Shown piece by piece: positions 1 through 20,581 of a DNA stretch of 22,234 nucleotides. The position numbers were made by a program, and so were the translations under genes. The stretch is taken from positions 1 through 22,234 of the IMG/VR virus record IMGVR_UViG_3300004369_000168; one strand, 5' to 3'. A model generated the notes under the pieces. The model made no database searches, was not told the origin of the DNA, and worked only from the letters and a program-made list of their open reading frames with translations. Source of the stretch: a virus. Position 1 is the first letter of the stretch. Each line of letters starts with the position of its first letter.

Positions 1-2120
1 ACAAAAGAATTCAGGAGTTTTTTGTTCGTGGACTTGCTCGCAAGCATCTTCTTAAATGCTCGGGTGATCTCTGCTTTCTTGGCACCAGACTCAACTTCAA
101 ATTCAGTGTCAACAGACAGAGAATTATTCGAGAGTGCATAAAGAGCCGTGAATGATTTGGGATCAGGAATGATAGCAGACTTCTCTTTCTTCCACTGCTT
201 TTGCACATCAGCATACTTCATGCTGTTGCCATAAACAGAAACAAAGTTAGACAATTGCGATGCGCTACCAATACGGAAACCAAGAATATTTACACCAGAG
301 TTACGATCACGAACTTGTTGAATAAAATTGTTAGTGCATACACCGTAGTATTCAGTCTTACTGTATGTAATTCCTGTCTTGCGATCACGGAGAATGCAAC
401 CTTCAGTGCGACGAGGACGAATGTAATACTCATCTTTGTAATCACTGTAAAACTTACGACCGTAAGTGCTCATGCAAGATTCACCATCAGTCAAGATACA
501 CACGTTTACTTTCTGAAGATCATTACGTTTTTTAAATTCAGGAATGATGTAGTTCAGCATGACAACGGCTTCATTGAGAGGAGTACCAGACAGTCCGATA
601 CCAGGAGTAGTATGGTATGAAACATATCGAACACAAGCATATGCTTCACGGAACAAGTTGTAGCACATCCGTTCATAATCTTTGGAGTTAGAACGAGAAG
701 ACACCATGTTCATCAGATGGAACTGATCTTTGTGCAGAAACACTTTGTTTTCCTCACAACCCATGTTCTCAAAATATTCATCATCGTTACGGTTATCAAC
801 TACCTGACCATTTGCACGGCGAACGGGGTAGTAGTCATTGGTGAACGCATAGACTTCAAACGGGATCTGAACTTTCTTACAGAAAGCAGTCATGTTTAGA
901 ACCTGCTTTACTGCTGCAAGAATATCATGTTGCATTGATCCAGACCAGTCAAGGAGGAACAACAAACCATGATTCTTACCATCAGTAACTACAGTCACTT
1001 TCTTAAAGATGTCTTCAGAATACTTATAAGTATGAAGCTTTGAAGTATCAAGAACACCAGTTTTAGATTCTCCAGAACGAGCATAAGCGTCAGCAGACTT
1101 ACGACACTCAAACTCTTTGACAAGATAGTTTACCTCTTTCTGCGATTGCTTTCTGAAATCACGATAAGCATCTTGTACTTCTATGTAGCCAGCAAAGTCT
1201 TCATTTCGCTCAAGAAATCCCTTGGAATAAGAATCAATCCAGTCATGAACTTCAGTCCAGTCAGCGACATAATCAGGAAGATTAACGCTGTCAGGAATCT
1301 CGATGTAAGTGTTGTTACCAGACCAACGATCAGTAAATCCTTTTGCGTTCTCATCAAAAGCACGTTGGGTACGAGACTCCTCTTCATCCATATGCTCACC
1401 ACCTTCAGATGTGCTACCGCTTTGCGGCATGGATTCTGCACCTTCACCACTTTCATTTTCACCTTCGCGGCGTTCTGCTTCCTCAAGCATTTCTTCATGT
1501 GTCATGCTTTCACCAGAAGCACCTTCGGAAGAACTTTGGTTTGCTTGCATCTCTTCAGGAGCAGGTTCCTGAATCTTTTCTTTCTTACTGTGGTTATAAA
1601 TGTCAACAGCAATCTGCAGGGCTTCCTCAAAAGTTTCACACTCATCAATGCGAGGAAGGAACTGACGCTCATCTGATTCAAAAGGAATCATGGCAGAAGC
1701 ACCAATTTTGTAGTGCAGATTGATACGGTCAATCAGGCTGAAGGTGTTGAGATCTTCGTCAGCAATCTCAAAGAAATCTCTATCATGCAGTTCTTTGTAA
1801 CCGCCAGCGAAAGAACGACGCAGACCAGGATACTTGCGCTTCATCAGCTTCTCAATGCGAGCATCCTCAACCACGTTGATAAAGTCCATAGGACAGTCAG
1901 CAACGTTCCTCCAGTCTTCATTAGGGGTGAAGAGTGCGTGACCAACCTCATGACCCACCAGGAGGTCATAGACTATGTTAGATGCTTTATCCCAATTAGG
2001 CAGCGTAAGCACACGGGTGTCTACGTTGAACTGTGCAGTTGAGCAATTGCGGTGCTCAACCACAAGGTTCTCGGTAGCCAGCAGTCGTGCCAGATTACCT
2101 TTGATTGCTTGGTTGGTCAT
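1..2120 (-). CDS. CobT-like protein with HEVGH metallopeptidase motif and VWA domain (3' end outside window)
   Basis: The reading frame stays open from the ATG at 2120 to the window edge, giving about 706 residues with no stop. An HEVGH zinc-protease motif lies at residues 57-61. A very acidic, Ser/Glu/Gly-rich linker spans about 175-250. A von Willebrand A domain follows with a complete-looking metal site: D391-x-S393-x-S395, T513 and D545 (in LTDGES). An acidic linker before a C-terminal VWA domain is the layout of CobT, the cobaltochelatase partner of the AAA+ ATPase CobS; CobS-like ATPases are common in T4-like cyanophages. The HExxH motif is not what I would expect in a chelatase, and related phage proteins are often just called peptidase. 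My inference is a MoxR/VWA-type pair acting on a protein or metal substrate, with the ATPase probably outside the window. The ribosome site is weak (AAGAGA). The gene follows the gp46 terminator and so is probably transcribed separately. Confidence 0.85.
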   Translation of the reverse strand, partial: MTNQAIKGNLARLLATENLVVEHRNCSTAQFNVDTRVLTLPNWDKASNIVYDLLVGHEVGHALFTPNEDWRNVADCPMDFINVVEDARIEKLMKRKYPGLRRSFAGGYKELHDRDFFEIADEDLNTFSLIDRINLHYKIGASAMIPFESDERQFLPRIDECETFEEALQIAVDIYNHSKKEKIQEPAPEEMQANQSSSEGASGESMTHEEMLEEAERREGENESGEGAESMPQSGSTSEGGEHMDEEESRTQRAFDENAKGFTDRWSGNNTYIEIPDSVNLPDYVADWTEVHDWIDSYSKGFLERNEDFAGYIEVQDAYRDFRKQSQKEVNYLVKEFECRKSADAYARSGESKTGVLDTSKLHTYKYSEDIFKKVTVVTDGKNHGLLFLLDWSGSMQHDILAAVKQVLNMTAFCKKVQIPFEVYAFTNDYYPVRRANGQVVDNRNDDEYFENMGCEENKVFLHKDQFHLMNMVSSRSNSKDYERMCYNLFREAYACVRYVSYHTTPGIGLSGTPLNEAVVMLNYIIPEFKKRNDLQKVNVCILTDGESCMSTYGRKFYSDYKDEYYIRPRRTEGCILRDRKTGITYSKTEYYGVCTNNFIQQVRDRNSGVNILGFRIGSASQLSNFVSVYGNSMKYADVQKQWKKEKSAIIPDPKSFTALYALSNNSLSVDTEFEVESGAKKAEITRAFKKMLASKSTNKKLLNSF

Positions 2121-2155: not shown

Positions 2156-2180
2156 AAAAAGGGGAGTCCGAAGACCCCCC
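2156..2180 (-). terminator. Rho-independent terminator after gp46
   Basis: On the minus strand the gp46 stop runs straight into an 8-bp stem (one G-U pair) closed by a TTCG tetraloop, then five T. The very stable C(UUCG)G loop and the T tract make this a textbook intrinsic terminator. It closes the gp55-47-46 operon and separates it from the CobT-like gene. Confidence 0.85.
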
Positions 2181-3910
2181 TATGCCGCTTCTGCAACTGT
2201 CTCTCGGACGACCGAGTAGTTCTTCACTTTCTCACACTGTAGAATTCTATCAAACTTTCCATCAAGATTTTCTTTGTGAGAGATCACAAACACATTAGTG
2301 TCATCATCAAAATTACGAAGGATCCATCCTAGTTCACCAGTACCATTTTGATCCAGAGAACCATCAAAGATTTCATCTAGTATGAGGATGTTAGTATCGA
2401 CGCTATTCTTAAGTTTAGCAACAGCACGCCAAGTAAGCAGAAGAGCGATGTCAATACGAGCTTTCTCTCCCTCGCTGAAGGATTCGTAAGAAAATGTATC
2501 CCTGTATCTTGACTTGATTGTTTCCTCAAAGTTCTCGTCCAATGCGAAGTTAACATAGAAGTCCATATTCTGAAGGTACTGGTTGATGAGTTTATTCATC
2601 ACAGGAAGATATCTCTTGATGATTCTGGTTTTGATTCCATTGTCTTTCAAGAGTTGTGACGCTGCAAGAAGTGTGTCACGTTCTTCTTTAATCTCGGAGA
2701 TCTGCTTCTTCAGTTTCAGGTATTCTTCCTGTAAGTATTTTAACTTCTCTTCCGCTTCCGAAGAATCTGATTTATTATTTCTTAATAATTCAATCTGATC
2801 CATCAGGTCTTTGACTTGCAACTGAATGCGGGTGATGGTAGAGTTTGCTATTGCAATATCAGAATTAACTTTGTTGATGAGTTTAGATGTTTCGATATAT
2901 TTTGATTCTCTTTCTTCCTCAAGTTTAATAGCAATATCCATTTCATCAAAGCCCTTGTTTAGTTCTTTGATGGAGTCCATGATAGTAGTAATTCTAGCAT
3001 CCTTCAATTCTTCCGTAATTGACTGACTACAAGTAGGACATGTAGAGTTGTGCATAAAAAACTCATGTTCTTTTTTATGCGTAGAAAACTTTTGTTGAAT
3101 CTTCCCCTTTAAAGTGTTTAACTTTTTAAGTTTTGTTGGCGTATAAGAGTTGGTTTCTAAATCTTTAGAATATTTTTCGCTTTCTACGTTAAGGTTGTTA
3201 ACAATTTCAATAGTTTTTTCTTCTTCTGCTAACAAAGAAGCAATAGCATTCTGTTTTTCAACAACACTCTCTTCATTTTTCTTACTGATGTGTTCGATGT
3301 ATTGTTGCTGCATCAGAATTTTTTCTTCAGCAAGATTAGATTGATAGTCAATCTGTTTCATCTCATCCGTAGACATCTTCACCTTGTCTTTCAACACGGT
3401 GTTCATTACAGAGAAGATCTGAATGTCAAGAATGTCTTCAATGATATCCCTACGTTGAGCGATAGGAAGACGCATGAAAGGAACAAAGGTACTACTTCCT
3501 AGTACCACAATTTGGGTAAACGATTTGTAATTCATCTTGAGGATATTAGTCTCAAGTTGCTTCTGATAATCGTTGGTTGTGCTGGACTGGTCAAGCATTT
3601 GACCGTTCTGGTAGATCTCAAAGACACCAGGCTTGATACCACGAACAACCTTAAAGTCGTTCTTTGAAATACTAAACTCGATCTCAACCATACAATCCTT
3701 CTGATTGATGCTATTCACCAGCATCGGTTTGTTGATCTTACGAAATGGTTTCCCAAACAAGGAGAAAGTTAGTGCATCTAGAATGGTAGACTTGCCAGCA
3801 CCATTAGCACCAATAATCAAATTTGTTTTTGAAGCTAACAAGTCAATCTCGGTGAATACATTTCCAGTAGATAGGAAATTTTTCCAACGGAGTTTTTTAA
3901 AGACAATCAT
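2180..3910 (-). CDS. 46: gp46, recombination endonuclease subunit (Rad50/SbcC-like)
   Basis: This is the ATPase half of the phage Mre11/Rad50 complex, which processes DNA ends for recombination-dependent replication and helps degrade host DNA. Walker A (GANGAGKST) is at residues 34-42. A long coiled coil is interrupted by a zinc hook, CPTC at 291-294, almost exactly in the middle of 576 residues. The ABC signature (FSEGEKAR, about 478-485) and Walker B with catalytic residues D512-E513 (LILDE) close the C-terminal half. The length is close to T4 gp46 (560). The ATG overlaps the stop of the DUF3110-like gene in ATGA, so translation is probably coupled. A terminator directly follows the stop. 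All key motifs are intact. Confidence 0.96.
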   Translation of the reverse strand: MIVFKKLRWKNFLSTGNVFTEIDLLASKTNLIIGANGAGKSTILDALTFSLFGKPFRKINKPMLVNSINQKDCMVEIEFSISKNDFKVVRGIKPGVFEIYQNGQMLDQSSTTNDYQKQLETNILKMNYKSFTQIVVLGSSTFVPFMRLPIAQRRDIIEDILDIQIFSVMNTVLKDKVKMSTDEMKQIDYQSNLAEEKILMQQQYIEHISKKNEESVVEKQNAIASLLAEEEKTIEIVNNLNVESEKYSKDLETNSYTPTKLKKLNTLKGKIQQKFSTHKKEHEFFMHNSTCPTCSQSITEELKDARITTIMDSIKELNKGFDEMDIAIKLEEERESKYIETSKLINKVNSDIAIANSTITRIQLQVKDLMDQIELLRNNKSDSSEAEEKLKYLQEEYLKLKKQISEIKEERDTLLAASQLLKDNGIKTRIIKRYLPVMNKLINQYLQNMDFYVNFALDENFEETIKSRYRDTFSYESFSEGEKARIDIALLLTWRAVAKLKNSVDTNILILDEIFDGSLDQNGTGELGWILRNFDDDTNVFVISHKENLDGKFDRILQCEKVKNYSVVRETVAEAA

Positions 3911-8158: not shown

Positions 8159-8670
8159 AGAATCCTGAAGTTCTTATCACGTAAAGTATAGCGACTATAC
8201 TTGAAGGTCACATTAGCGGTGAAGAAATCGATGTCGTTTACACTGGCATCGAATGATAGTTCTGTTAGAGATACTGGAAACAGTCTCTCAAAATCAATAA
8301 AGAAATTAGCATTGTGATTTGATGTGGAGATTTGTAATTGACCAGCGGAATAACCCTCTCCTTCCACGTCTCCATCTCTATCAGCATTTCCGTTATCGCG
8401 AATCCAATTCCAGATAGAAGAATAATTTACCATGTCTTCATCTACGATAAAACGAAGCTGAAGATCACCATAAGTTACTCCGCCACCAGCAATAATTGGA
8501 TACTCCCTGAACCTTGTAGGTACTTGAGTAACCTGCGCGGATACATCAGGGAGATTGACTGCTTGGCACAAGAAATCTACAGCAGCAAATCTTTCAAGCT
8601 TCAACTTGAAACCTACTGGTGTTAGGTAGTTTCTATTTACTAACTGTTCCTTGTACCAATCGGCAGACAT
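8155..8670 (-). CDS. Tail-tube-fold structural protein, probable gp3-type tail completion/sheath stabiliser
   Basis: A 171-residue protein. An early block (FAAVDFLCQAVNLPDVSAQV) and a late block (FPVSLTELSFDASVNDIDFF then TANVTFKYSRYTL) parallel the gp19 tube protein of this window, which has LLCKSAALPASNLGVIEV and FPTSVSQIDLAYDSNDQIEEF then TVEFQYSYW. It is therefore a tube-like beta barrel used at one end of the tail. In T4-like cyanophages the gene ahead of uvsY is, as I recall, annotated gp3, the tail completion protein (T4 gp3 176 aa), and the size agrees. A baseplate tube initiator is the alternative. A GGGAAG ribosome site precedes the ATG by 7 bases. Confidence 0.75.
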   Translation of the reverse strand: MSADWYKEQLVNRNYLTPVGFKLKLERFAAVDFLCQAVNLPDVSAQVTQVPTRFREYPIIAGGGVTYGDLQLRFIVDEDMVNYSSIWNWIRDNGNADRDGDVEGEGYSAGQLQISTSNHNANFFIDFERLFPVSLTELSFDASVNDIDFFTANVTFKYSRYTLRDKNFRIL

Positions 8671-8691
8671 GTCAACTTCCCAAGCTACTAC

Positions 8692-8699
8692 TATTTAGC
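8692..8699 (-). promoter_or_regulatory. Possible weak late promoter box (GCTAAATA)
   Basis: One base off NATAAATA. It contains the TAA stop of the membrane-protein gene and lies 22 bases before the next ATG. The position fits the pattern seen at the other late boxes, but the match is imperfect. Confidence 0.4.
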
Positions 8700-9357
8700 A
8701 GTCGTTAAATACTTGTCCAACTTGTGATCCTGCTTCGGATCCAATCTTCTGTCCTAGGAGTAATGCCCAACCACCTGCTAACCATCCAACGTAAGGGATG
8801 CTAGCAACAGCAGGGACAGCGACACCTGCAGCGATTGCACTACCCGCCATAGCACCTTGTGACCGAGCTCCAGCGTCCGCGATCAAACATTCTACGTCTT
8901 TCGCAGACTTTCCCTCGGAGTTTGCATCACCTCCAAGATTACGGGTGCCTTCTTTGGTGTATTGATCTCTACGATATTCCAGTCTTTTTTCTGTACCACC
9001 TCCAAACATTCCTCTCTTCTCTTTGTCGAGGTTAAGAGATCTTTCTGATTCTAAAACTTTAGGATCATCTGAACGATACTCAATCTCATATCCATCCTTA
9101 CCAGCTTTAATTTTGTAGGATGAATATGGTCCTCTTGGAATATTAATTGTTGGAACTGGTTGCACTTTTTCTTGTGGTCTTAAAACATAACCCAGGAGAC
9201 CGATATGCGACAAAGCAAATAAAGTTCCAGCAACAATTACAACAGTTTTCAATGGAGACCTAGAGGATTTATTAAACTCTACTCTAGTATCAGAATTTTT
9301 TTTCTGTTCTTGTAGTTTTGCTTCTTTTGCGGCTTTCGCTTCTTCTAGGGTTGCCAT
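8695..9357 (-). CDS. Single-span membrane protein with glycine-zipper C-terminus
   Basis: A 220-residue protein of unknown function. The N-terminal 36 residues are charged, Ala/Lys/Glu-rich and probably coiled. One clear membrane helix covers about 37-59 (TVVIVAGTLFALSHIGLLGY). A hydrophilic, Lys/Arg/Glu-rich middle follows (60-155). The last 55 residues are Ala/Gly-rich with repeated small-xxx-small spacing and two hydrophobic stretches (AIAAGVAVPAVASIPYVGWL and GWALLLGQKIGSEAG), like glycine-zipper membrane domains. The N-terminus carries no signal peptidase site. It sits among late genes between the HNH gene and a tail gene, so an envelope or virion-associated role is possible. The ribosome site AGAGA lies 5 bases from the ATG. 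Confidence 0.8.
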   Translation of the reverse strand: MATLEEAKAAKEAKLQEQKKNSDTRVEFNKSSRSPLKTVVIVAGTLFALSHIGLLGYVLRPQEKVQPVPTINIPRGPYSSYKIKAGKDGYEIEYRSDDPKVLESERSLNLDKEKRGMFGGGTEKRLEYRRDQYTKEGTRNLGGDANSEGKSAKDVECLIADAGARSQGAMAGSAIAAGVAVPAVASIPYVGWLAGGWALLLGQKIGSEAGSQVGQVFNDC

Positions 9358-9383
9358 TATTCTCTATGACGTAGAGCAATAAT

Positions 9384-9391
9384 TATTTAGA
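9384..9391 (-). promoter_or_regulatory. Possible weak late promoter box (TCTAAATA)
   Basis: One mismatch to NATAAATA. It contains the TAA stop of the HNH gene and sits 27 bases before the next ATG. It is followed by a small inverted repeat, CTCTA/TAGAG (9362-9376), around the leader of the membrane-protein gene. Confidence 0.4.
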
Positions 9392-9698
9392 CAATGGTAG
9401 ATCTAAATTGAGTCTCCCCTCTATCCTCCCTGTAGTGGCGTATACGATGGCAGTTACTACAAAGCATCATACACTTCTCTACCTCCTCCAGAATCGTGTC
9501 CCAGTTGCGATCCAGAGCAGGTGCAATCTCAAACTTCTTCTCTAATGGATTTACATGATGGAAGTCATATGCACACTTGTGGAATGTACCACCACAGTCA
9601 GCACACTTATTATCAAACTTCTCAATCAGCTGATCCTTTCTCTTGTCTCTACGACGGCGGATATATTCGTTACGTTCTTCTTTATTTTGTCTTGGCAT
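9387..9698 (-). CDS. HNH endonuclease (homing-type candidate)
   Basis: A 103-residue protein from the ATG at 9698 (MPRQNKEERN). A basic N-terminus (RRRRDKRKDQ) leads into a zinc-binding HNH fold: C-x2-C (CADC), the DFHH core histidines, then C-x2-C-H (CSNCHRIRH). This is the compact phage HNH type that nicks or cuts DNA, often as a free-standing homing endonuclease. An in-frame ATG at 9707 adds three residues; extending further upstream would run through the gp23 terminator, so I reject it. The gene has its own TATAAATA late box and a hairpin in its leader but no clear Shine-Dalgarno sequence. Free-standing endonuclease genes next to conserved capsid genes are typical of T4-like phages. Confidence 0.85.
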   Translation of the reverse strand: MPRQNKEERNEYIRRRRDKRKDQLIEKFDNKCADCGGTFHKCAYDFHHVNPLEKKFEIAPALDRNWDTILEEVEKCMMLCSNCHRIRHYREDRGETQFRSTIV

Positions 9699-9699
9699 A

Positions 9700-9719
9700 G
9701 TTAACATTGTGTTGTTAAC
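9700..9719 (-). promoter_or_regulatory. Leader hairpin of the HNH gene
   Basis: A perfect 7-bp inverted repeat (GTTAACA / TGTTAAC) with a 6-base loop. The 3' arm contains most of the ATG at 9707 and ends one base before the codon preceding the ATG at 9698. The predicted late start (about 9716) falls inside the 5' arm, so late transcripts could not form the full stem. Confidence 0.55.
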
Positions 9720-9721
9720 TT

Positions 9722-9729
9722 TATTTATA
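9722..9729 (-). promoter_or_regulatory. T4-type late promoter (TATAAATA)
   Basis: An exact match to the T4 late promoter box on the minus strand. It overlaps the T tract of the gp23 terminator by one base and lies 15 and 24 bases before the two candidate HNH starts. Confidence 0.85.
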
Positions 9730-9753
9730 AAAAAAAGGACCCCGAAGGGTCCC
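9729..9753 (-). terminator. Strong Rho-independent terminator after gp23
   Basis: On the minus strand GGACCC, a TTCG loop and GGGTCC form a perfect 6-bp stem with a UUCG tetraloop, followed by eight T. It is 20 bases after the gp23 stop. It should end the very abundant capsid message and insulate the HNH gene. Confidence 0.92.
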
Positions 9754-9772
9754 TGTAATCTTGAGTGATGAC

Positions 9773-11191
9773 TCACATCAAGTTGATAACTTGTACTCTT
9801 CTGTAGTACATGTTTGCATTTGCCGAGAGGGTTTCGCCATCGGGGGTGCCGTTGTATGCACCGTTGGTGGTGACGAATGGGTTGCTGACCATGCCGTAAC
9901 GAGTCTTGAAGCCAATCTTGGGCTGGAAGGTGTTAGGATCGATCGAGCGAACCATCTGGAGGGGTACGTATGGGCAGTAGAAGAGACCTGCGTCATAAGG
10001 CGAGGTGCCCTTGTAGCCGATAACGTAGTAGTGCTTGTCAGAGAGGTTAGCAGCATAAGGATCAACGTAGACCTTGATGCGACCGTTGATAGTACCGACT
10101 GAAAGGTTACCAGTGTCATCAACCTGACCGATGGAAGGACCACCAGCACCGTTGAGTCCAGAGGTGTAGTCAAGTACACCAGCCATTGCAAGTGCGGAAG
10201 CAACGTCAGCTGAACAGATCAGGAAGTTGCCCTTTCCTCTACGAGTCTCTTGTGCGATTGCGTTAGCATCGCGCTCGATTTGGAAAAGAAGACCTTTGAA
10301 CTTCTCAACCGACCAACGACCGTTGGAGTCAACGTCGAGGTCAAATACGCCAGGGGTTGCTACGTTGTTTTGAGCACCTTTCTTCGCAACGGTGTAGACG
10401 GTACGAACGACTTCACGGTTGATTTCTGCGAGAACTTCGCTAGACAGAATGTTAGCGAGCTCTTGCTCTGCATCTAGACCGTGGATCGCCTTGAGGTCTT
10501 GTGCGAGTTCTAGGGTGTACTCTGCCTTGAGTGCTCTGGATTTCGCGGTTACCGAGGTCTTCTCGATGCTGAATGACATCTCACGGAAGAGACGATTTGC
10601 TTCGCCCATACGCTCAAGATCTTCGCGGGGCATTCCACGACCTACTTCATATGCGTTAGCAGCAGGTGCTGCATCGTTGAGGAGAGCGGGGTTGTTGCCT
10701 TCAGAATCGCCACCAACACCAGCACCAGTTCTAGGTGTGTAAGCGCCAGCGGTTGCATCGTAAGATGCAGAGAATCCAGTGTCGGGCTCGTTGAACAGTG
10801 CCTCTTCGCCCTGTAGACCTTCGTAGCGTGAACGCATTGCGAAGATCAGTCCAGTAGGACCAGACATTGGTTGAACGCCACAAACGTCATATGCCATTAG
10901 GTTAGGCATTGCACGACGAACTAGGCTGATTAGAACGGGGTCGAAACCAGCAAGTCCAGTTGCGTTATCTGCGCTGTTGCCGAGAGGTGCGCCAGTACCC
11001 AAACTTGCTGAAGTATTGAGTGAGTTGACAGCAACTTCGTTTAGCATTCCACGCTCTTCGCGTAGAAATCTTTCTTGGTTTTCCAGGAGAACAGAGGTAA
11101 CAGCCTTCTTATAACGGTCAGTAATTGGCGAAGCCATTTCGTGACCTAGAACAGGCGACCACTTTTCCTGGAGTCTTTCTGCGTTAAACAT
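9773..11191 (-). CDS. 23: gp23, major capsid protein
   Basis: A 472-residue HK97-fold shell protein that forms the hexamers of the head (T4 gp23 is 521). Recognisable cyanophage gp23 features are FDPVLISLVRRAMPNLMAYD, CGVQPMSGPTGLIFAMRSRY and the C-terminal VPLQMVRSIDPNTFQPKIGF then KTRYG. T4 gp23 loses an N-terminal peptide to the gp21 protease at an (I/L)-x-E site. Here LLE (35-37), LRE (43-45) and LNE (50-52) are candidates; LNE would leave a mature N-terminus VAVNSLNTS. The GGAG ribosome site lies 7 bases from the ATG, with a TATAAATC late box 29 bases upstream. A strong terminator follows. The gene looks richer in G+C than its neighbours, as is common for highly expressed capsid genes. 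Confidence 0.97.
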   Translation of the reverse strand: MFNAERLQEKWSPVLGHEMASPITDRYKKAVTSVLLENQERFLREERGMLNEVAVNSLNTSASLGTGAPLGNSADNATGLAGFDPVLISLVRRAMPNLMAYDVCGVQPMSGPTGLIFAMRSRYEGLQGEEALFNEPDTGFSASYDATAGAYTPRTGAGVGGDSEGNNPALLNDAAPAANAYEVGRGMPREDLERMGEANRLFREMSFSIEKTSVTAKSRALKAEYTLELAQDLKAIHGLDAEQELANILSSEVLAEINREVVRTVYTVAKKGAQNNVATPGVFDLDVDSNGRWSVEKFKGLLFQIERDANAIAQETRRGKGNFLICSADVASALAMAGVLDYTSGLNGAGGPSIGQVDDTGNLSVGTINGRIKVYVDPYAANLSDKHYYVIGYKGTSPYDAGLFYCPYVPLQMVRSIDPNTFQPKIGFKTRYGMVSNPFVTTNGAYNGTPDGETLSANANMYYRRVQVINLM

Positions 11192-11219
11192 TTGTAACTC
11201 CGAGTGTTTTTAGAAAAGG

Positions 11220-11227
11220 GATTTATA
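11220..11227 (-). promoter_or_regulatory. Late promoter box ahead of gp23 (TATAAATC)
   Basis: Seven of eight bases match TATAAATA. It starts three bases after the gp22 TGA stop and lies 28 bases before the gp23 ATG. The position suits a leader carrying the GGAG ribosome site. Confidence 0.7.
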
Positions 11228-11230
11228 TTA

Positions 11231-12391
11231 TCAGGAATTCCAGCGGTTGATTGCGTTGAGGTAAGCCGCCATTGCTGGGGATACTGCCTCGCCTTCTACT
11301 GGGGTTTCATCGGTAACTTCTGCTTTTGGAGCAGAACCCGAGGGGAAGTATGACTCGCGGAGAGTTTTTAATTTCTCTGCGAACTTCTCTTCTGTCTCAA
11401 ACTCTACGCCTTCAGCGAGAGAAGCTAGTTTGTCTTTTTGAGTGTCTGCCAGACCTTCTGAAACAATGTTCAGAACTACAGTTTTTGCAGACTCATCAAG
11501 ACGACCTTGAAGTTTCACATTTGCTTTGACCTGTTCGTCAAGGCGTTCCTCCATCTTACGAAGATCTTCAGTCAGACCCTCAACGACATCAACTTTGTCG
11601 TCGGGGATATTGATGTAATGCTCTTGGAAGAGATTCTTAAGTCCAGCAATGAAATCTTCAGTGATCTCATTGCGGATGCCGCGATCAACTGCGACTTGGT
11701 TCTCTTCTAACCATGCGGTGATAGCATACTTAACGGTGCCACCAACTTCTTCAGCAAGTTCCTTTTTAACTTCGGAGACTTGCTCATTGAGGCGAGTTTC
11801 AAACTGCTCTTCGAGTTTCTTCCACTCTTCGGAGAGCTTGGACTTAACTGCTGCCTCAAAAATTGTAGTTGCTTTTTCTTTGAACTCTTCAGAAAGTTCG
11901 GTTCCTTCGGTGAGTGCTGCAACATCCGCACTCATGTCAAGTGATTCAAAGGAAGGCTTGATGGGATATGAAACGTCAGGACCAGTCTTTGTTCCATATG
12001 ATACGTCTGTACCAACAGAGGGTCGTGCGTTCATACCAGTAGACTCACCAGCTCTTTGCTGGGGATCACCACTGACTGGCTTAACAGGAGCAGATGCTTT
12101 AGCGCCAGGATTATCCTCGCCCTCTTCGTTACCATCTGGACGTGGACCACCGTTGTCGGTGATCGACTGTTGTGCGCCATAACCGTTTACAGCGTCAGTA
12201 CCGATAGAACCTTTTCCTTCTGCACTGCCACCTCTGGAGTTAACTTCTGTCTTTGATTGACCAGAAGCATTATGTGTACCACCACCAGGAATAACGGATG
12301 CGGAAACAGTTGGCATAGGATCGCCAGCTTCTACAACCAAACCTGATTCGGTTACAAACTCCTCAAATTTTTCCTTTAACATATCTGACAT
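11231..12391 (-). CDS. 22: gp22, prohead core scaffold protein
   Basis: A 386-residue scaffold that fills the prohead and is cut to peptides by gp21. Residues 30-150 are low-complexity, Gly/Pro/Ser/Asn-rich and disordered-looking. Residues 160-350 are charged and coiled-coil-like (for example SEEFKEKATTIFEAAVKSKL and the MEERLDEQVKANVKLQGRLD stretch). The C-terminus (AMAAYLNAINRW) is short and hydrophobic, resembling the C-terminal end of T4-type scaffolds. Several (I/L)-x-E motifs could serve as protease sites. It is longer than T4 gp22 (269), mostly through the disordered N-terminal part. The position between gp21 and gp23 is the T4 arrangement. A GGGGA ribosome site and an AATAAATA late box precede it. 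Confidence 0.92.
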   Translation of the reverse strand: MSDMLKEKFEEFVTESGLVVEAGDPMPTVSASVIPGGGTHNASGQSKTEVNSRGGSAEGKGSIGTDAVNGYGAQQSITDNGGPRPDGNEEGEDNPGAKASAPVKPVSGDPQQRAGESTGMNARPSVGTDVSYGTKTGPDVSYPIKPSFESLDMSADVAALTEGTELSEEFKEKATTIFEAAVKSKLSEEWKKLEEQFETRLNEQVSEVKKELAEEVGGTVKYAITAWLEENQVAVDRGIRNEITEDFIAGLKNLFQEHYINIPDDKVDVVEGLTEDLRKMEERLDEQVKANVKLQGRLDESAKTVVLNIVSEGLADTQKDKLASLAEGVEFETEEKFAEKLKTLRESYFPSGSAPKAEVTDETPVEGEAVSPAMAAYLNAINRWNS

Positions 12392-12430
12392 TTGAGTTTC
12401 CCCGTAAATTTCTGATAATTATTCTATGAT

Positions 12431-12438
12431 TATTTATT
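12431..12438 (-). promoter_or_regulatory. Late promoter box ahead of gp22 (AATAAATA)
   Basis: Matches the NATAAATA late box on the minus strand, 4 bases after the gp21 stop and about 40 bases before the gp22 ATG, in a non-coding gap. Confidence 0.7.
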
Positions 12439-12442
12439 AATA

Positions 12443-13087
12443 TTAGAGATTTGAGAGGAAGTGCTCAAACACCTGTAGTGTTCTTGCTTCCAACTCTCTT
12501 CTCGTTGATTCGTCAATGTATCTTTGGTATTTAGCAACAGTCTTCTCCTGGAGAATGCCGTTGTTCCATACCCACTCCTTACCTTCCATGATACCATTAA
12601 CAAATGCATCAGGAGCTGAAGGATCTGCAACAATATCTGCTGCGGTAGCAAGCATGAAATCGTCCATGACATAGTTAGCATTCTCTTGGCGATCAATACT
12701 ACCCATACCACGGGAAGAAACTCCTAACTTCACACCTTCCTCAAGCAGGGACTTCGCAATGCTACCCATCGGTGTGGCGAGAATCTGTGCCTTACCAATG
12801 AAGTTATTGCCTTCCGCTTTGAGAGAAGTAATTCTATGAGAAACGCGATCTAGGTTCACAGTAGGACCATCGGGATGCCCAAGCTCTCCCAGAGCACGTC
12901 CAGTTTTGACATACTCTTCGTTGTAACGACCAACTTCTTTTTCCAATACAGAGAAAGGATAGATGCGACCGTTACGGTTCTTGATTTCGGACTGCAAGAA
13001 TACACCTTCGATGTAAAGGTTCTTCTTACCATCCTTTTCCTCGGTGAGGATTTGGATGTCTTCGATGTTTTCTGTGATAAGTTTCAT
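12443..13087 (-). CDS. 21: gp21, prohead core protease
   Basis: A 214-residue serine protease (T4 gp21 212) that cleaves the scaffold, the capsid N-terminus and itself during head maturation. The T4-type blocks are SEIKNRNGRIYP near the N-terminus, GELGHPDGPTVNLDRVSHRI (residues 67-86), GVSSRGMGS (122-130) and the TAADIVADPSAPDAFV block (148-163). By comparison with the T4-like and herpesvirus protease fold I assign H84 and S124 or S125 as catalytic, with H71 as an alternative; this cannot be decided from sequence alone. The ATG overlaps the stop of the small core gene in ATGA. It ends just before the gp22 late box. Confidence 0.94.
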   Translation of the reverse strand: MKLITENIEDIQILTEEKDGKKNLYIEGVFLQSEIKNRNGRIYPFSVLEKEVGRYNEEYVKTGRALGELGHPDGPTVNLDRVSHRITSLKAEGNNFIGKAQILATPMGSIAKSLLEEGVKLGVSSRGMGSIDRQENANYVMDDFMLATAADIVADPSAPDAFVNGIMEGKEWVWNNGILQEKTVAKYQRYIDESTRRELEARTLQVFEHFLSNL

Positions 13088-13278
13088 TCTTCTGCCGATG
13101 GTTCGTCCCCAGTAGGCTCATCAAAATATGATGACGCTACTGTTTGTTTGTACGTGTCGATAACGTCGGATGCCTTTGAATAAAGATAGTCATTAATTTT
13201 ATCCAACGCTTCTCCGCGCTTTTTGTCTGCGATCAGATCAACAATGTCAACCAATTCAGATTCTAATGGTGTATCCAT
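13084..13278 (-). CDS. Small acidic prohead-core candidate (gp67/gp68 position)
   Basis: A 64-residue, strongly acidic protein with no membrane segment, mostly helical in appearance (ELVDIVDLIADKKRGEALDK), ending in a Glu/Asp/Pro-rich tail. It occupies the place between portal and protease where T4 has the core proteins gp67 and gp68, and the size and charge resemble gp67 (80 aa, acidic). I do not see enough sequence similarity to name it. Its stop overlaps the gp21 ATG in ATGA, so it is translated with the protease. A late box overlaps the gp20 stop, 28 bases before its ATG. Confidence 0.75.
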   Translation of the reverse strand: MDTPLESELVDIVDLIADKKRGEALDKINDYLYSKASDVIDTYKQTVASSYFDEPTGDEPSAEE

Positions 13279-13305
13279 ACTATTAAAATTATCCGTAGAT
13301 ATTAA

Positions 13306-15003
13306 TTATTTATTAGACTTTGGTTTTGAAGCAGCAGGAGCGGGCTTCAACTTCTCCATTTCTTTTGCTTTATCCAATTCATACTCCGCAGAATCTGCAG
13401 ACTGTTGCGCTTGAATTTCTGGTTGATAAGCAGAGTTTTGCTTGTCCATCATGTCCAAAGTATTAACATCAACAGGATCAATTGCCATGCCTGAATCAAT
13501 ATCAGATTGCATTTGCTTGGTGATTTCTTTGTATTCCTTCTCGGTCTGCATGAGAACCTGGCGGCGGATATACTCTGAAGAGAAATACTTACCAACAAAA
13601 GGATCCATCTGTGTAACAAGAGTGACGCGCTGCATCATAAGCTCTTGCTGCTTTAATTCATTGAAGTGATTGTCAAACAGGAAGTCATACTGAATATGCT
13701 CTTCCATTTCCTCCCAATCATCAGGAGTAATGATACCTTTGAGGATCAGTTGTGTCTTGAGAATATCGTGGAAAAGTGAAGAGAAACGTTTACGAAGGCG
13801 TCCGATGAACTTTGAAAATTTGAGTTCATCTCGTAGGATCTCCGTGGTCTTACCAAGATTAAATGCTTTGTTGTCATCTGTAAGGCGGGAAGGTGGTAAG
13901 TTGAGGGAGTTATATAACTTCTTCCTGAAATACTCAACATCTTTGAGTTCACCAAGGTTCTGACCGCCTGGTAGTGTAGAGATTTCAGTACCTCTACCAC
14001 CTTCGCGGCGAGGAAGCCAGAAATCTTCCAGCATTGACATATGCTTTTTATCATCACGAATCTCTCCTGTAGCTGCATCATATACAAGTTTGTTTCTGTA
14101 ACGTGCCATCACGTCACGGAGGTATTGTTCTGCCTTTACCTTTGGTAGATTACCTACGTCGATGTAGAAAATTCTACGCTCGGGAGCGCGGGATAATCTG
14201 TAGATAACAAGTGAGTCCTCAATCATGCGGAGTTGATTAAGTGACTTGATTGCCTTGTGTAGAAAACTCAACTGATATTTCTTGTTCAGATCCATCACAC
14301 CAGAGTTACAAGTGGCGATAGAATCAGAAGCAATTTTAATACCGTTGTTGGTCGAGAAGTCTGATGCACTATTGCTAGGCATACCCATCGAACCAGAAAA
14401 ACCTTTCGAATTGTAGAGATAGTAATCTACATAGTCGCCCCAATCATATTCTAATGCTGTGCCACGTACCAGATTAGGATTAGCAGCAGCAGTTGGATTA
14501 GTAATTTTTTGACGAACCTTGCGGATCTTCAATGGATCAATGTAGCGCAGTTCAAGAATACCTTTCTTGGGGTTGTCTAAATCTACTACCTTGTGGTAAT
14601 ATGTACGACCATCAACATACCAATTACGAATGATCTGATGAGCATTCTTATCGAAGTTGATCATCTTTTTGATACGATCAAATTCATCTCTAATCTTTTT
14701 CTTGACACCAGCGCCGATGTCAAGATTAGACAGTTCAATCTCAACGGGACTATCATCAGCATCGCTGACAACAAACTCGTTTACAATCTCGTCGATAGCA
14801 GTATCGACTTCTGGATGAAGTGACATGTCGCGATATCTTTTGATGAGTTCATACTCATTCTTGGAGACACCTTCGACATCTACGTATGTACCAAAATAGC
14901 CACCTGCTACGGTGGCTACGCTGTCATCACTATTGGGAGGGATAGGGGATTGCCCCCTATCCTCCTTTCCTTTGTTGATTAAAAAACCAAACAGTTGACT
15001 CAT
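13306..15003 (-). CDS. 20: gp20, portal vertex protein
   Basis: A 565-residue portal subunit (T4 524); twelve copies form the DNA entry channel that docks gp17. The diagnostic cyanophage gp20 blocks are all present: VYRLSRAPERRIFYIDVGNL (with I before Y), then MARYRNKLVYDAATGEIRDD, KHMSMLEDFWLPRREGGRGT with EISTLPGGQNLGE after it, and SLNLPPSRL. The C-terminal 60 residues are Gln/Lys/Ala/Pro-rich and look disordered. This gene is the classic diversity marker for cyanomyoviruses. The start ATG has no good Shine-Dalgarno sequence nearby; a late box and a 9-bp hairpin occupy the leader. The stop lies inside the next late box. Confidence 0.97.
   Translation of the reverse strand: MSQLFGFLINKGKEDRGQSPIPPNSDDSVATVAGGYFGTYVDVEGVSKNEYELIKRYRDMSLHPEVDTAIDEIVNEFVVSDADDSPVEIELSNLDIGAGVKKKIRDEFDRIKKMINFDKNAHQIIRNWYVDGRTYYHKVVDLDNPKKGILELRYIDPLKIRKVRQKITNPTAAANPNLVRGTALEYDWGDYVDYYLYNSKGFSGSMGMPSNSASDFSTNNGIKIASDSIATCNSGVMDLNKKYQLSFLHKAIKSLNQLRMIEDSLVIYRLSRAPERRIFYIDVGNLPKVKAEQYLRDVMARYRNKLVYDAATGEIRDDKKHMSMLEDFWLPRREGGRGTEISTLPGGQNLGELKDVEYFRKKLYNSLNLPPSRLTDDNKAFNLGKTTEILRDELKFSKFIGRLRKRFSSLFHDILKTQLILKGIITPDDWEEMEEHIQYDFLFDNHFNELKQQELMMQRVTLVTQMDPFVGKYFSSEYIRRQVLMQTEKEYKEITKQMQSDIDSGMAIDPVDVNTLDMMDKQNSAYQPEIQAQQSADSAEYELDKAKEMEKLKPAPAASKPKSNK
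13307..13314 (-). promoter_or_regulatory. Late promoter box overlapping the gp20 stop (AATAAATA)
   Basis: Matches NATAAATA on the minus strand. The last codons of gp20 (Asn-Lys-stop) are written by the box itself. It lies about 29 bases before the ATG of the small core gene. Confidence 0.65.
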
Positions 15004-15011
15004 GATTAATA

Positions 15012-15036
15012 AAATAGTACCCTTGATGTACTATTT
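15012..15036 (-). repeat. 9-bp perfect inverted repeat in the gp20 leader
   Basis: AAATAGTAC and GTACTATTT are separated by 7 bases. The 5' arm overlaps the late box (15032-15039), and on the minus strand the 3' arm runs into TTTTATT. The loop carries AAGG, a Shine-Dalgarno-like core that is too far (17 bases) from the gp20 ATG to act directly. Confidence 0.75.
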
Positions 15037-15039
15037 ATC
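15032..15039 (-). promoter_or_regulatory. Late promoter box overlapping the gp19 stop (GATAAATA)
   Basis: Matches NATAAATA. The gp19 TGA stop supplies its first two bases. It lies 28 bases before the gp20 ATG, with a predicted start inside the inverted repeat. Confidence 0.7.
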
Positions 15040-15661
15040 AGGATTCAATTCTGATGCCGCTGCCTGCTGGGTCTGCTGATGCGCCACTAGTGATTGCGCT
15101 AGCTGTAGGATCTACTGCCTTCCAGTATGAATACTGGAACTCAACGGTGAATTCTTCGATCTGATCGTTGCTATCATAAGCAAGATCAATTTGAGAAACG
15201 CTAGTTGGGAAAGCATGAAGTAGATCATACTGACGTAAGACACTACCAGCTTCGGTGCTGTCCTTACGCAGTTGCTTGACACCCAATGTTGCCATGTAAC
15301 CTTCGCTGTTGTTTGGTTTAAACAGTGGCGAGTTGTTGGTTTCGTGAGTGTTGATTTGCTCCAACCACTTCTCGAAGTAAGCGCGAAGCTTGAACTCTCT
15401 GTCGTTGAAGAATGTTGCGGACCATGTATCGAAAGTGCGATCACCAGCAATCTTGACTGTTCTTCCTCTGAAAGGAACCTCAATCACTCCCAGGTTTGAT
15501 GCTGGGAGTGCTGCGGACTTACAGAGGAGGTTTACTAAATCTAGATCATCGCTCTTTGGTGCGTTTGCCAATGTTTGTGGCCAATTGATATCGACCGCAA
15601 ACATATTAGGCTTAACGCCTTCACCAATTTTAGTTAGAAAATCGTTTAATTTAGTTGCCAT
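15038..15661 (-). CDS. 19: gp19, tail tube protein
   Basis: A 207-residue subunit of the inner tail tube through which DNA is injected; the stacked hexamers are sheathed by gp18. Recognisable parts are LVNLLCKSAALPASNLGVIE, VPFRGRTVKIAGDRTFDTWS, an FFNDREFKLRAYFEKWLEQI block, and FPTSVSQIDLAYDSNDQIEE leading into TVEFQYSYW. It is longer than T4 gp19 (163), with an extra Ser/Ala/Gly-rich tail after the last strand. The ribosome site GAGG lies about 10 bases from the ATG. It follows the sheath gene and shares its stop codon with the gp20 late box. Confidence 0.95.
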   Translation of the reverse strand: MATKLNDFLTKIGEGVKPNMFAVDINWPQTLANAPKSDDLDLVNLLCKSAALPASNLGVIEVPFRGRTVKIAGDRTFDTWSATFFNDREFKLRAYFEKWLEQINTHETNNSPLFKPNNSEGYMATLGVKQLRKDSTEAGSVLRQYDLLHAFPTSVSQIDLAYDSNDQIEEFTVEFQYSYWKAVDPTASAITSGASADPAGSGIRIES

Positions 15662-15682
15662 TTTAGTTTACCTCTTGTGTGT

Positions 15683-15690
15683 GATTTATC
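15683..15690 (-). promoter_or_regulatory. Late promoter box overlapping the gp18 stop (GATAAATC)
   Basis: One mismatch at the last base of NATAAATA. The gp18 TGA stop provides its first two bases; it lies 21 bases before the gp19 ATG. Confidence 0.55.
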
Positions 15691-18112
15691 AGCGACCGAC
15701 TACTTCAGCAAACGTGACACCAGTCTTCGTTGCTGTGAAGGTTACGGTGATGTAGTTAATTGAACGAGTTGGCTTAACGAAGAGTTCAGCGACAAACTCG
15801 TTACGATCAATTACATCTGGGGTGTTGTTGGACTCATCACATACCACAAGGAAATCAGTTACGCCGCGACGTGCCTGAACTTCTGCCAGATAGCTGTTAA
15901 CAGCAGAGGCAAAAGCAGAACGAGTTGTCGCGTCGTTTTGCTCAAATAGAACTCCTTTTGCGAGATCACCAACTCTCTTCTCAAGGTTGAGGAAGAGGCG
16001 ACGAACGTTGATACGATCGAACGCGGAAGGTGATGCAAGAGCAGTCTTGTCTCCAAACAGAGTGACTCCACTACCAGGGAAAATAACCACAGGGTTAATT
16101 CTGTTCATGTAGAGTTCGTCTCTGTCTGCTTTGCTTGGATTGTAAGCAAGCTTGATTGCGTTACGGAGTGAACCTCTGTTGACGCCAGCAGGTGAATACC
16201 AGTCATCTAGGAGAGCTGAAGTGTTAACGCAAAGACCCGCAACGTCTCCGTTGCAAGGGATGTAGCGGTACTTATCGTTAAAACGATCGTAGTAATACTT
16301 GTAACCGCTATCAAATACTGCATATGAAGTAGAAGTCATTCCGTTGAAGAAGTTCAGTGTGTTCTCCTTCTGTTGGAATGCGGTGAGAACACCAGCACTA
16401 CCTACTTGGTTTGCTTTGTGTGGTGAAACAAAAGCAACACAATCTTTTCTTGCAGCAGCAATAGAGATTACTTTATTTGCCTTTGCCTTGGTATCATTCT
16501 CGGTTGCAAGTGAACCGCCCATGAGTAGGAAGTTGATATCAACTAGTTCCGTATCCGCAAACTCATCGAATGCAGTCTCGATTTCTGATGCTGTATAAGC
16601 ATAGTCATCAGCACCACCTTGTAGTGTTGCTTCTAGCTTACCAACCAACTGGAATGCATCACCAGAAGTTAAAGCACTGGAGTCTGAACCCAATGCTACA
16701 CCAGCACCAGAAGAAGAAGGATTCCAAGCAGCAGCAGGAGCGGTGCCATTGAAGATAGCGGTTGATTGATCGTTGATTAAATCTTTGAAGTAGTTAGAAG
16801 CATTTTCTGCACTTCTACCATCAGAGAGTTTTGAACCGTAGAGGATTCTTTCAACAACTGTGTTGGCAGCACCGCTGTATACACCAGTTACATCAACAAC
16901 AGCAACGTGAATCTCGTCATACTTAAGACCTCTTTCTTCAGCATACTGGGAAGTGCCAGGACGAGGACCGACAGCCGATAGAGTTAGACCAGTTGTGCCG
17001 ATCTGGGTTGTGGTGTACCAATCTCTAACTGCAGAAATAGTGATTTGACCATCAACTACAGATGCAATTTCGAAGGTAGAATCTCCACCGCCACCAGCAA
17101 TAGTGATGATGTCTCCGATTACGTAACCTACACCAGCGTTATCTACAACTGCGGTTGCAACTCCACCCTCTACTGTAGCTACAGTAAATGTTGCGTTGTT
17201 ATCACCAGCAGCAATTGTTAGTGTATCGCCAACAGTATAACCAGTACCACCGTTATTAATAGCGATACTAGTTACAGAACCAGCGGTTGCAACTACGTCT
17301 ACAGTGGCATTAGATCCCGTACCACCAGTTGTTGCTAATCCAGTTTGGGTGATGTAAGAAGTACCACCAGCACCACCAGAAAGAGTAAGGATAGAACCAA
17401 CAGAAACTGTAGTATTAACTGTTAGACCAGATCCTTGACCACCAGTAGTAGCAACTGCTGTAGCTGACTGATAACCAGTACCAGCAACAAATGATCCGAT
17501 AGTAGCCGTAATACCAATTTCTGGTGAATCTAGAGAATCGGATGTAGTTAGTCTAGATGATGGATCATCGAGGATAACAGCAACTGTCTTGCTTGCTGCA
17601 TCCCATGAATAGACAGTACCAGTTTTACCACCAACAAAAGTCAGTGTATCACCCATAGCAATTGAAGCTGGGGTATTTGATAAAGTTACATACTGATCAG
17701 CACCACGGTCAACAAAAACAACCTTAAGGTCATTTGCCCACGTACCTGCAGATCTTGCTACTAGGAAATTTCCGTTTCCGTTACCTGCTTCCCAGTCTTC
17801 GTCATTTCTAACAACGACTGCTGTTCCAGTATCTGTTGCGCTATTTACACCAGTGGCAGCACGTACCACGCTTAACCTTCCGCCATAGTTGAGGAATTCT
17901 GAAGCAACGAACCAATCTTCTGCATTTTGTTCAGCAGGAGCACCAAAAATAGAAAGAAGTTCTTTCTGTGAACTGATGTTGGTTGCTTTTCCAATAGGAC
18001 CCTTTTGGAAAGTTGATGCAACACCAGCAGTAATTGTGGATGCGCCGACGATGACAGCATTAGATAAGTCGCGTTCCTTTAGAACGATTCCAGGCGAGAC
18101 TTGACTTGCCAT
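15689..18112 (-). CDS. 18: gp18, tail sheath protein
   Basis: An 807-residue contractile sheath subunit (T4 659). The N-terminus, MASQVSPGIVLKERDLSNAV, and the C-terminal VKPTRSINYITVTFTATKTG are the conserved strands through which sheath subunits mesh. The segment KRVGDLAKGVLFEQNDATTR belongs to the conserved C-terminal core. Residues about 205-352 form an unusual Gly/Thr/Val-rich insertion with four degenerate repeats of 36-40 residues (G-x-G-Y-x-x-G-D-x-L-T-I-A-G type); it accounts for most of the extra length. A strong AGGAG ribosome site lies 7 bases from the ATG, with a late box 38 bases upstream. Confidence 0.95.
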   Translation of the reverse strand: MASQVSPGIVLKERDLSNAVIVGASTITAGVASTFQKGPIGKATNISSQKELLSIFGAPAEQNAEDWFVASEFLNYGGRLSVVRAATGVNSATDTGTAVVVRNDEDWEAGNGNGNFLVARSAGTWANDLKVVFVDRGADQYVTLSNTPASIAMGDTLTFVGGKTGTVYSWDAASKTVAVILDDPSSRLTTSDSLDSPEIGITATIGSFVAGTGYQSATAVATTGGQGSGLTVNTTVSVGSILTLSGGAGGTSYITQTGLATTGGTGSNATVDVVATAGSVTSIAINNGGTGYTVGDTLTIAAGDNNATFTVATVEGGVATAVVDNAGVGYVIGDIITIAGGGGDSTFEIASVVDGQITISAVRDWYTTTQIGTTGLTLSAVGPRPGTSQYAEERGLKYDEIHVAVVDVTGVYSGAANTVVERILYGSKLSDGRSAENASNYFKDLINDQSTAIFNGTAPAAAWNPSSSGAGVALGSDSSALTSGDAFQLVGKLEATLQGGADDYAYTASEIETAFDEFADTELVDINFLLMGGSLATENDTKAKANKVISIAAARKDCVAFVSPHKANQVGSAGVLTAFQQKENTLNFFNGMTSTSYAVFDSGYKYYYDRFNDKYRYIPCNGDVAGLCVNTSALLDDWYSPAGVNRGSLRNAIKLAYNPSKADRDELYMNRINPVVIFPGSGVTLFGDKTALASPSAFDRINVRRLFLNLEKRVGDLAKGVLFEQNDATTRSAFASAVNSYLAEVQARRGVTDFLVVCDESNNTPDVIDRNEFVAELFVKPTRSINYITVTFTATKTGVTFAEVVGR
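17057..17482 (-). repeat. Four degenerate protein repeats inside gp18
   Basis: Codons for residues 211-352 encode units beginning near 211 (GTGYQS), 247 (GAGGTSY), 288 (GGTGYTVGDTLTIAAG) and 326 (AGVGYVIGDIITIAGG). Each unit runs G-G-x-G-Y, V-G-D, T-I-A, then a short T-F/T-V strand. Units 3 and 4 are most alike. Similar glycine-rich beta repeats occur in other phage surface proteins. Confidence 0.7.
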
Positions 18113-18149
18113 GTTTAACTCCTGTAAGTTACCAAACTTGATCTAAAAA

Positions 18150-18157
18150 TATTTATT
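18150..18157 (-). promoter_or_regulatory. Late promoter box ahead of gp18 (AATAAATA)
   Basis: Matches NATAAATA in the 85-base gap between the zinc-finger gene and gp18, 38 bases before the sheath ATG. Confidence 0.7.
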
Positions 18158-18197
18158 ATTTCTACTCTCTCAAGTGGGGAAACAATGCATGAACATA

Positions 18198-18425
18198 TTA
18201 CCAGTCAGGATATTCCCATTTATCGAAAACTGCATTAGTCATCCTACTCAACACTATTCTCTTTTTCGTGCAGTCTTTGCACTCATATGAATATGCTGAA
18301 GCAGAAGTCCTATCTCTGCGAGTTCTATAAAAATCTACAAGAAGATCTTTCTTGATACCACAAGTTCTACATCTTCTTTCTTTAAAAATAAGATGGTCTA
18401 AATCAAAAAGATCTCCTACGTCCAT
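18198..18425 (-). CDS. Small zinc-finger protein between gp17 and gp18
   Basis: A 75-residue basic protein with two Cys pairs, CRTC and CKDC, separated by about 26 residues rich in Arg, Tyr and Ser (DFYRTRRDRTSASAYSYECK). The Cys pair, then F-Y and basic residues, then the second Cys pair is typical of zinc-ribbon domains in phage HNH and endonuclease VII-like proteins, but no His-Asn-His core is visible, so it may only bind DNA. I chose the ATG at 18425 because a GGAG ribosome site precedes it by 7 bases and it overlaps the gp17 stop as TAATG; a GTG at 18437 is the alternative. It separates two genes that are usually adjacent, which suggests an acquired cargo gene. Confidence 0.75.
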   Translation of the reverse strand: MDVGDLFDLDHLIFKERRCRTCGIKKDLLVDFYRTRRDRTSASAYSYECKDCTKKRIVLSRMTNAVFDKWEYPDW

Positions 18426-20074: not shown

Positions 20075-20096
20075 AACAATAATAGTTCACTACTAG

Positions 20097-20104
20097 TATT
20101 TATT
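20097..20104 (-). promoter_or_regulatory. Late promoter box ahead of gp17 (AATAAATA)
   Basis: Matches NATAAATA and contains the TAA stop of the upstream small gene. It lies 22 bases before the GTG start of gp17. Confidence 0.7.
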
Positions 20105-20369: not shown

Positions 20370-20581
20370 TTCTTGAGTTCCTGTAGCATTTTTTCAATGT
20401 TCGCGGTGTCTTTAGAAAGTTGATGGTGTAGTTTTCTACGCATCATTTCCATTCTAAATCTAATCCACGCAAAACGTAACTGGAGATCCACATACGCAAA
20501 AAACCTCATCGTTGCTTCAACCCCGCCAACGGCGAAAAGGATTAAAACAAAGATGAGGATCATGTAAGTCCCGTACATCAT
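20366..20581 (-). CDS. Small single-span membrane protein
   Basis: A 71-residue protein with one clear membrane helix at about 5-25 (TYMILIFVLILFAVGGVEAT), followed by a basic amphipathic stretch rich in Arg, Phe and Met and a charged end (IEKMLQELKK). Two adjacent ATG codons (20581, 20578) could serve as start; there is no clear ribosome site. It is coupled to the Cys-rich gene through an ATGA overlap. The family and function are not recognised. Confidence 0.7.
   Translation of the reverse strand: MMYGTYMILIFVLILFAVGGVEATMRFFAYVDLQLRFAWIRFRMEMMRRKLHHQLSKDTANIEKMLQELKK

Follow-up and report, generated by a model that had tools for sequence, protein, structure and literature searches.

A conserved HExxH...E motif ahead of the vWA domain in the CobT-like protein encoded beside cobS in T4-like cyanophages

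The window, i.e. the whole stretch of DNA that was analysed (22,234 nucleotides, positions 1 to 22,234 of IMG/VR record IMGVR_UViG_3300004369_000168), comes from a virus record consisting of a single contig. Its left end carries, on the minus strand, a gene for a CobT-like protein, preceded in the direction of transcription by gp46, a small ORF, gp47 and gp55, in the synteny of T4-like cyanophages. The features referred to below are the following.

3-2120, minus strand: coding sequence of the CobT-like protein with predicted zincin and vWA domains, 706 residues here (ORF, phrog_459 match, full-length homologues)
1566-2120, minus strand: N-terminal zincin-like domain, residues 1-185 (AlphaFold2 model)
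1938-1952, minus strand: HEVGH, residues 57-61, on predicted helix 48-64 (sequence and conservation)
1851-1877, minus strand: NVVEDARIE, residues 82-90, with E85 as candidate third metal ligand on predicted helix 78-96
1251-1565, minus strand: acidic low-complexity linker, residues ~186-290 (sequence)
321-983, minus strand: vWA domain, residues ~380-600 (hhalign to the vWA domain of SSU5-type phage CobT, 94%, E = 1.2e-7)
936-950, minus strand: MIDAS motif DWSGS, residues 391-395 (D391, S393 and S395 identical throughout the 52 aligned CobT-type proteins, whatever their group)
582-584, minus strand: MIDAS residue T513, in GTPL (alignment of the 52 proteins)
486-488, minus strand: MIDAS residue D545, in TDG, invariant in 52/52 aligned CobT-type proteins
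2160-2181, minus strand: terminator-like hairpin with a T tract between gp46 and the CobT-like gene, overlapping the gp46 stop (-19.9 kcal/mol, z = -3.7)
2180-3910, minus strand: gp46, recombination endonuclease subunit, the upstream neighbour (position fits S-CAM3 and P-SSM2 synteny)
8670, 9357, 12391, 13278, 15003, 18112, 20074 and 21205: 5' ends of eight ORFs preceded by NTAAATA

The left edge of the window cuts the coding sequence, leaving out its final ~8 codons and the stop; the number follows from the S-CAM3 protein, the closest annotated relative (84% identity), which has 714 residues versus 706. The window protein matches phrog_459 "peptidase" (E = 2e-271 over the full length; T4-GC 146 of T4-like cyanophages), a known and widely sequenced family that already bears the peptidase label, and is a typical representative of it. 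A preliminary description of the sequence had placed HEVGH at residues 57-61 ahead of the acidic linker, which the ORF translation bears out, and the residues of the full D391-x-S-x-S/T513/D545 site are also located as it stated. The linker varies in length and composition between relatives. Position 513 is T in the cyanophage, pelagiphage, OC and mobile-element proteins and N (in a few cases G) in the remaining phage CobTs and in B12 CobT. All three MIDAS blocks (DxSxS, T, D) are found in 110 of 112 relatives, the other two lacking the GTPL block alone.

Searching with the window protein by tblastn gave 463 phage records, 459 of them covering 80% or more of the query; most of the records listed, including that of S-PM2, are annotated "peptidase". 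The whole-protein scan had HExxH among its own search patterns and was for this reason redone with the vWA patterns only. In the set selected in this way, HExxH is kept in all 77 homologues with the N-terminus on the contig (the other 3 hits are truncated). Across 97 N-domains, H57, E58, H61, N82, E85, D86, R88 and E90 are invariant; the conservation of HEVGH across homologues, named beforehand as a check, is thus found in both sets. E58, expected to act as the general base, varies no more than the two histidines, and the spacing from H57 to E85 ranges within 25-31 residues among relatives. In 109 distinct viral homologues the codons of H57 (CAT 79, CAC 30), E58 (GAG 53, GAA 56), H61 (CAC 36, CAT 73) and E85 (GAG 61, GAA 48) vary only synonymously, both codons of each being present. 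This pattern indicates that HExxH and the downstream glutamate are under purifying selection and that the motif is beyond chance. The position of E85 makes it a candidate for the third metal ligand.

The AlphaFold2 model of the N-terminal domain has a mean pLDDT of 82 (mostly >87 for residues 41-180, <50 from residue 186). The predicted elements follow one another as helix 8-16, strands 20-23, 30-32 and 37-40, helix 48-64 with HEVGH and helix 78-96 with E85, which is the order of a mini-zincin. Both histidines are predicted on one helix; as far as topology goes, the model thus passes the second check named beforehand, that the two should be able to bind one metal. In the PDB fold search with this model, the top six matches are all zincin chains, although weak ones: ArdC twice, selecase twice (match probabilities 0.92 and 0.87), an M1-type cold aminopeptidase and abylysin; the E values of these six are 0.14-0.77, and no match has E<0.1. 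A search of viral models returned other phage CobT/vWA proteins and a protein of the haloarchaeal virus HHTV-2. For the SSU5-like N-domain, the model (pLDDT 90) begins with the same succession of elements and is dominated by extra helices. The structural likeness to zincins holds for the topology and for the identity of the best matches, but not for their E values, nor for the SSU5-like model, with which Foldseek returned no zincin.

In annotated relatives the gene is followed by CobS, then by the sliding clamp gp45 and the clamp loader gp44. A CobS/MoxR-like ATPase follows it in S-CAM3, P-SSM2, P-HM1, HTVC008M, S-CREM1 and S-CREM2, and a CobS-type ATPase is next door on 114 of the 118 IMG/VR loci with enough downstream sequence. 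The relatives' gene order would thus put CobS just off the left edge of the window, where the preliminary description had suggested looking for a cobS/MoxR ATPase. The CobS neighbour matches AAA_5 (E = 1.6e-18) and weakly also CbbQ_C, and the Walker A motif of the S-CAM3 CobS reads GLSGNGKT. In SSU5-like phages the CobS-CobT pair adjoins DNA polymerase III, and similar CobST pairs are present in phages of Vibrio, Gordonia and Salmonella/Klebsiella.

The pair is annotated as "ribosome assembly protein" or "RNA binding protein" plus MoxR ATPase in S-CREM2 (L005, 3995-7249) and S-CREM1 (L363, 3471-6756). S-CREM2 has been said to be without cobS (PMC10665884), and the MoxR gene has been presented as unique (PMC9964418); the pairs of S-CREM1 and S-CREM2 are the usual cyanophage gene pair.

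Elsewhere in the window, a tail-sheath-like ORF of 807 residues (15689-18112) includes a repetitive region rich in glycine, with GGTGYTVGDTLTIA among its repeats, which we take to be an insertion relative to T4 gp18. A small ORF at 9387-9776, adjoining the capsid-protein ORF, has a CxxC...HH...CxxCH pattern like that of a free-standing HNH endonuclease, and a cysteine-rich ORF of 79 residues (CRTCG...CKDC) lies at 18198-18437, directly 3' of a terminase-like ORF.

Direct searches of Pfam, NCBIfam and PDB sequences with the window protein gave nothing useful, and its best Pfam match, XLF (E = 0.15), was dismissed as chance. The Pfam CobT family PF06213 is not matched by the window protein and is matched weakly by 2 of 97 relatives (best E = 0.03). 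Profiles A4 and A5 against PDB sequences returned chance matches and a marginal CobT, 21vu_H (E = 1.1), hhalign of the cyanophage N-domain directly on cellular CobT gave no alignment, and viral scans seeded with OC-phage proteins found nothing. The N-termini of SSU5-like phages and phage-plasmids match PF06213 in 24/24 cases and contain HExxH in 23/24. The cyanophage N-domain aligns on these proteins (97.5%, E = 6.5e-12) with HEVGH over HEVAH and the ED.RIE blocks in register, and the SSU5-like profile aligns by hhalign on alphaproteobacterial CobT (90%, E = 1.8e-7) with no gap over the motif and HEVAH opposite SMALR. As both its N-domain and its vWA domain align to the SSU5-like phage CobTs, the window protein is a CobT relative; in these profile comparisons the link between the cyanophage N-domain and cellular CobT holds solely via the SSU5-like phages.

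No HExxH in register was found in ~115 B12-type CobTs (80 from one scan, 29 close and several divergent ones), a sample that partly consists of B12-CobT-resembling proteins from a survey of 299 genomes; at the H-E-H positions they have S/A, M/L and R. In the joint alignment of 52 proteins, H-E-H is present in 34/34 phage and mobile-element sequences labelled active, a count which follows from the selection of that label and tests the register across families, and E85 is present in 33/34. H-E-H is found in 0/15 B12-type proteins, and the three phage/plasmid exceptions read S-E-K, Q-E-K and R-E-T at the motif positions. Both motif histidines are lost, with the glutamate and the rest of the protein kept, in the CobTs of an A. 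baumannii plasmid family, nickie and BUCTxx99 (L094, L093 and L097), so the pair can work, or at any rate be retained, without the motif. The HDxxxH of cellular CobT was considered as a degenerate HExxH and rejected, since hhalign and a separate MAFFT alignment both put SMALR at this position and HD further on. Two cellular CobT frames contain a seeming HExxH that precedes the gene itself, and the one in L347 is in the wrong place.

The B12-type proteins come out as a single clade (support 100) amid HExxH-bearing proteins in a maximum-likelihood tree. Parsimony on the CobT-type tree requires four changes and places HExxH at the midpoint root, this rooting being weak evidence for the direction; four losses would be easier to account for than the same three residues arising repeatedly. 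A second cellular vWA clade with DCSGSM (L343-L347), sister to B12 CobT, is also without HExxH. HExxH-bearing CobT-like proteins, divergent homologues from the 299-genome survey, occur on Pseudomonadota contigs (L348, L349, L351 and L352), near primase-like and DUF3150-like ORFs, and these contigs are probably integrative elements.

Tentatively, and with somewhat more weight against it than for it, the whole CobS-CobT family may be seen as having begun as an AAA+-driven metalloprotease of phages and mobile elements. The B12 subunit would then be derived, its active site lost (H-E-H to S-M-R-type) and its linker, vWA domain and ATPase partner kept, the phage versions would be active proteases, and the reading of ocean-virome "cobS/cobT" as auxiliary metabolic genes would be wrong. 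An origin is thereby offered for the N-terminal domain of CobT. The open-access literature searched yielded no account of the CobT N-domain as zincin-like, with an active site that phages and mobile elements have kept but the B12 enzyme has lost.

The auxiliary metabolic reading was proposed for phage CobST in PMC8651126 and is assumed in surveys such as PMC9983427: phage CobS and CobT would join the host CobN to place cobalt in the corrin ring, so increasing the cobalamin available for nucleotide synthesis. The homology of the cyanophage protein to CobT is real, and the control cyanobacterium Synechococcus elongatus has CobN, and the same scans gave neither a PF06213 CobT nor a class I RNR small subunit there, so that a host CobN lacking a CobT partner does exist. 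However, CobN was found in 0/13 CobST-bearing phage genomes, 10/13 themselves encode a class I RNR small subunit, which does not depend on B12, and the similar pairs in phages of other hosts, listed above, also tell against this role. It further leaves unexplained why the protease residues are strictly kept in phages and replaced in the examined B12-type CobTs. We consider a cobalamin function of the cyanophage gene improbable.

The window contains 10 copies of the heptamer ATAAATA, every one on the coding strand, versus 3.8 expected, and the late-promoter-like NTAAATA stands 28-46 bases 5' of eight genes of the virion half (8670-21244). In the window no NTAAATA precedes the CobT-like gene, gp46, gp47 or gp55, and among relatives ATAAATA is found within 120 bases upstream of the gene in 0/113. 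The hairpin at 2160-2181 suggests that the CobT-like gene is a separate transcription unit from gp46. In published cyanophage series (PMC7238727) the nucleic-acid genes belong to the middle class, this gene being unmentioned there. From the promoter motifs and the position of the gene within the gp55-gp47-gp46 / gp45-gp44 replication module, we infer early or middle timing, and the action late in infection that had been envisaged for the protein is not supported.

These observations also bear on a role in virion assembly, in which the MoxR-vWA pair would aid assembly and the peptidase would process structural proteins. Such a role has been published for the analogous jumbo-phage DUF2201 pair, and the tail assembly of an archaeal virus needs a MoxR-vWA pair, as cited in the same work (PMC7824862). 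Against it stand the lack of the late motif of virion genes and the location amid replication and recombination genes in T4-like phages and beside DNA polymerase III in SSU5-like ones. The S-CREM1 virion proteome is described as consisting of four structural proteins and a further ten whose function is unknown; this description names neither MoxR nor CobT. We regard this role, too, as improbable.

With no CobN in the 13 phage genomes and no late promoter motif, a metalloprotease or remodeller of the replication phase, and not a late virion enzyme, is the most likely product of the gene. We judge the chances to be about even that the window gene encodes a metalloprotease or remodeller which is coupled to an AAA+ ATPase and acts in the early to middle phase. 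The N-terminal domain of this CobT-family vWA protein would probably be a catalytic HExxH...E metallopeptidase (zincin), partnered by the CobS/MoxR-type AAA+ ATPase of the adjacent gene. The vWA metal site would grip a peptide of the target protein, the ATP-driven movement of the AAA+ ring would be passed on via the acidic linker, and the target, once remodelled, would be clipped by the zincin domain. The target may be a host or a phage protein, and the action would take place alongside the replication-recombination genes and not in cobalamin synthesis or virion maturation. For the window protein itself, zinc binding, proteolysis, the coupling to ATP hydrolysis, the timing and a target are all proposed from sequence, models and gene order; what the data show directly are the sequence sites and their conservation, the homology to CobT, the neighbouring ATPase and the lack of the late promoter motif. 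A metallopeptidase controlled by a MoxR/CobS-type ATPase, rather than a vitamin B12 enzyme, is what the preliminary description had put forward, and the intact conserved HExxH...E site, the CobS neighbour and the absence of phage CobN speak for it; its late action is not supported.

Metal binding without proteolysis is another reading of the same site: the HExxH...E metal would serve stability or regulation, and CobS-CobT would be a pure remodeller like CbbQ-CbbO or NorQ-NorD. The loss of the catalytic histidines in several phage and plasmid members whose sequence is otherwise preserved, along with the ATPase, is in its favour, as is the weak CbbQ_C match of the cyanophage CobS. The invariance of E58 is not, because in zincins this residue is the general base and no metal ligand, and a structural metal site would not require one. 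It seems to us unlikely, if a little less so than the cobalamin and virion roles.

Should the pair be an ATP-driven protease, the B12 reading would fail for a gene pair that is among the most abundant in ocean viruses, and a core gene of cyanophages would acquire a role, in takeover or in replication, that can be tested. In cyanophage surveys cobS is used as a marker of B12-related host genes (PMC9983427), and cobT is counted alongside it as a nucleotide/B12 auxiliary gene (PMC7029224). A contradiction in print would also be resolved, between "peptidase" in the records and the 2021 statement that the cyanophage CobT was "mistakenly annotated as a peptidase" (PMC8651126): both names, "peptidase" and "CobT", appear to be right for this gene. 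The CobT name is also mixed up with the unrelated dimethylbenzimidazole phosphoribosyltransferase, in phage record OV696614.1 and in PMC11288001.

Among known systems, phrog_459 "peptidase" of T4-like cyanophages is the same family in the same place, between gp46 and CobS/gp45. The cobaltochelatase CobT (PF06213; alphaproteobacterial, of B12 operons; PDB 9uka, 21vu) shares the order of N-domain, acidic linker and vWA domain and the CobS partner, but the B12-type proteins sampled are without HExxH in register, whereas the cyanophage protein is without a PF06213 match and its phages without CobN. The role in cyanophages, described beforehand as not settled, is less novel than that implied, the "peptidase" annotation being long-standing and a jumbo-phage pair of MoxR with a vWA protein bearing an N-terminal metallopeptidase having been proposed in 2021 (PMC7824862). 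The proteins ASV44728/ASV44729 of jumbo phage Atu_ph07 (DUF2201_N plus DUF2201 vWA, and MoxR ATPase) have the same architecture as the cyanophage pair, the N-terminal metallopeptidase being putative there too, with HQILH in place of HEVGH; membership in one family was rejected, since the N-domain profile comparison gave 0.1% and the window protein has no Pfam DUF2201 match. The mini-zincins selecase, abylysin and ArdC, the best if weak matches among solved folds (E = 0.14-0.86, identities <15%), share the order of helix, strands, HExxH helix and second helix; they are known to have neither a vWA domain nor an AAA+ partner. RavA-ViaA, CbbQ-CbbO, NorQ-NorD and Mg-chelatase, for which no zincin domain is known, combine an AAA+ ring with a vWA protein that has an intact MIDAS, as does the cyanophage pair.
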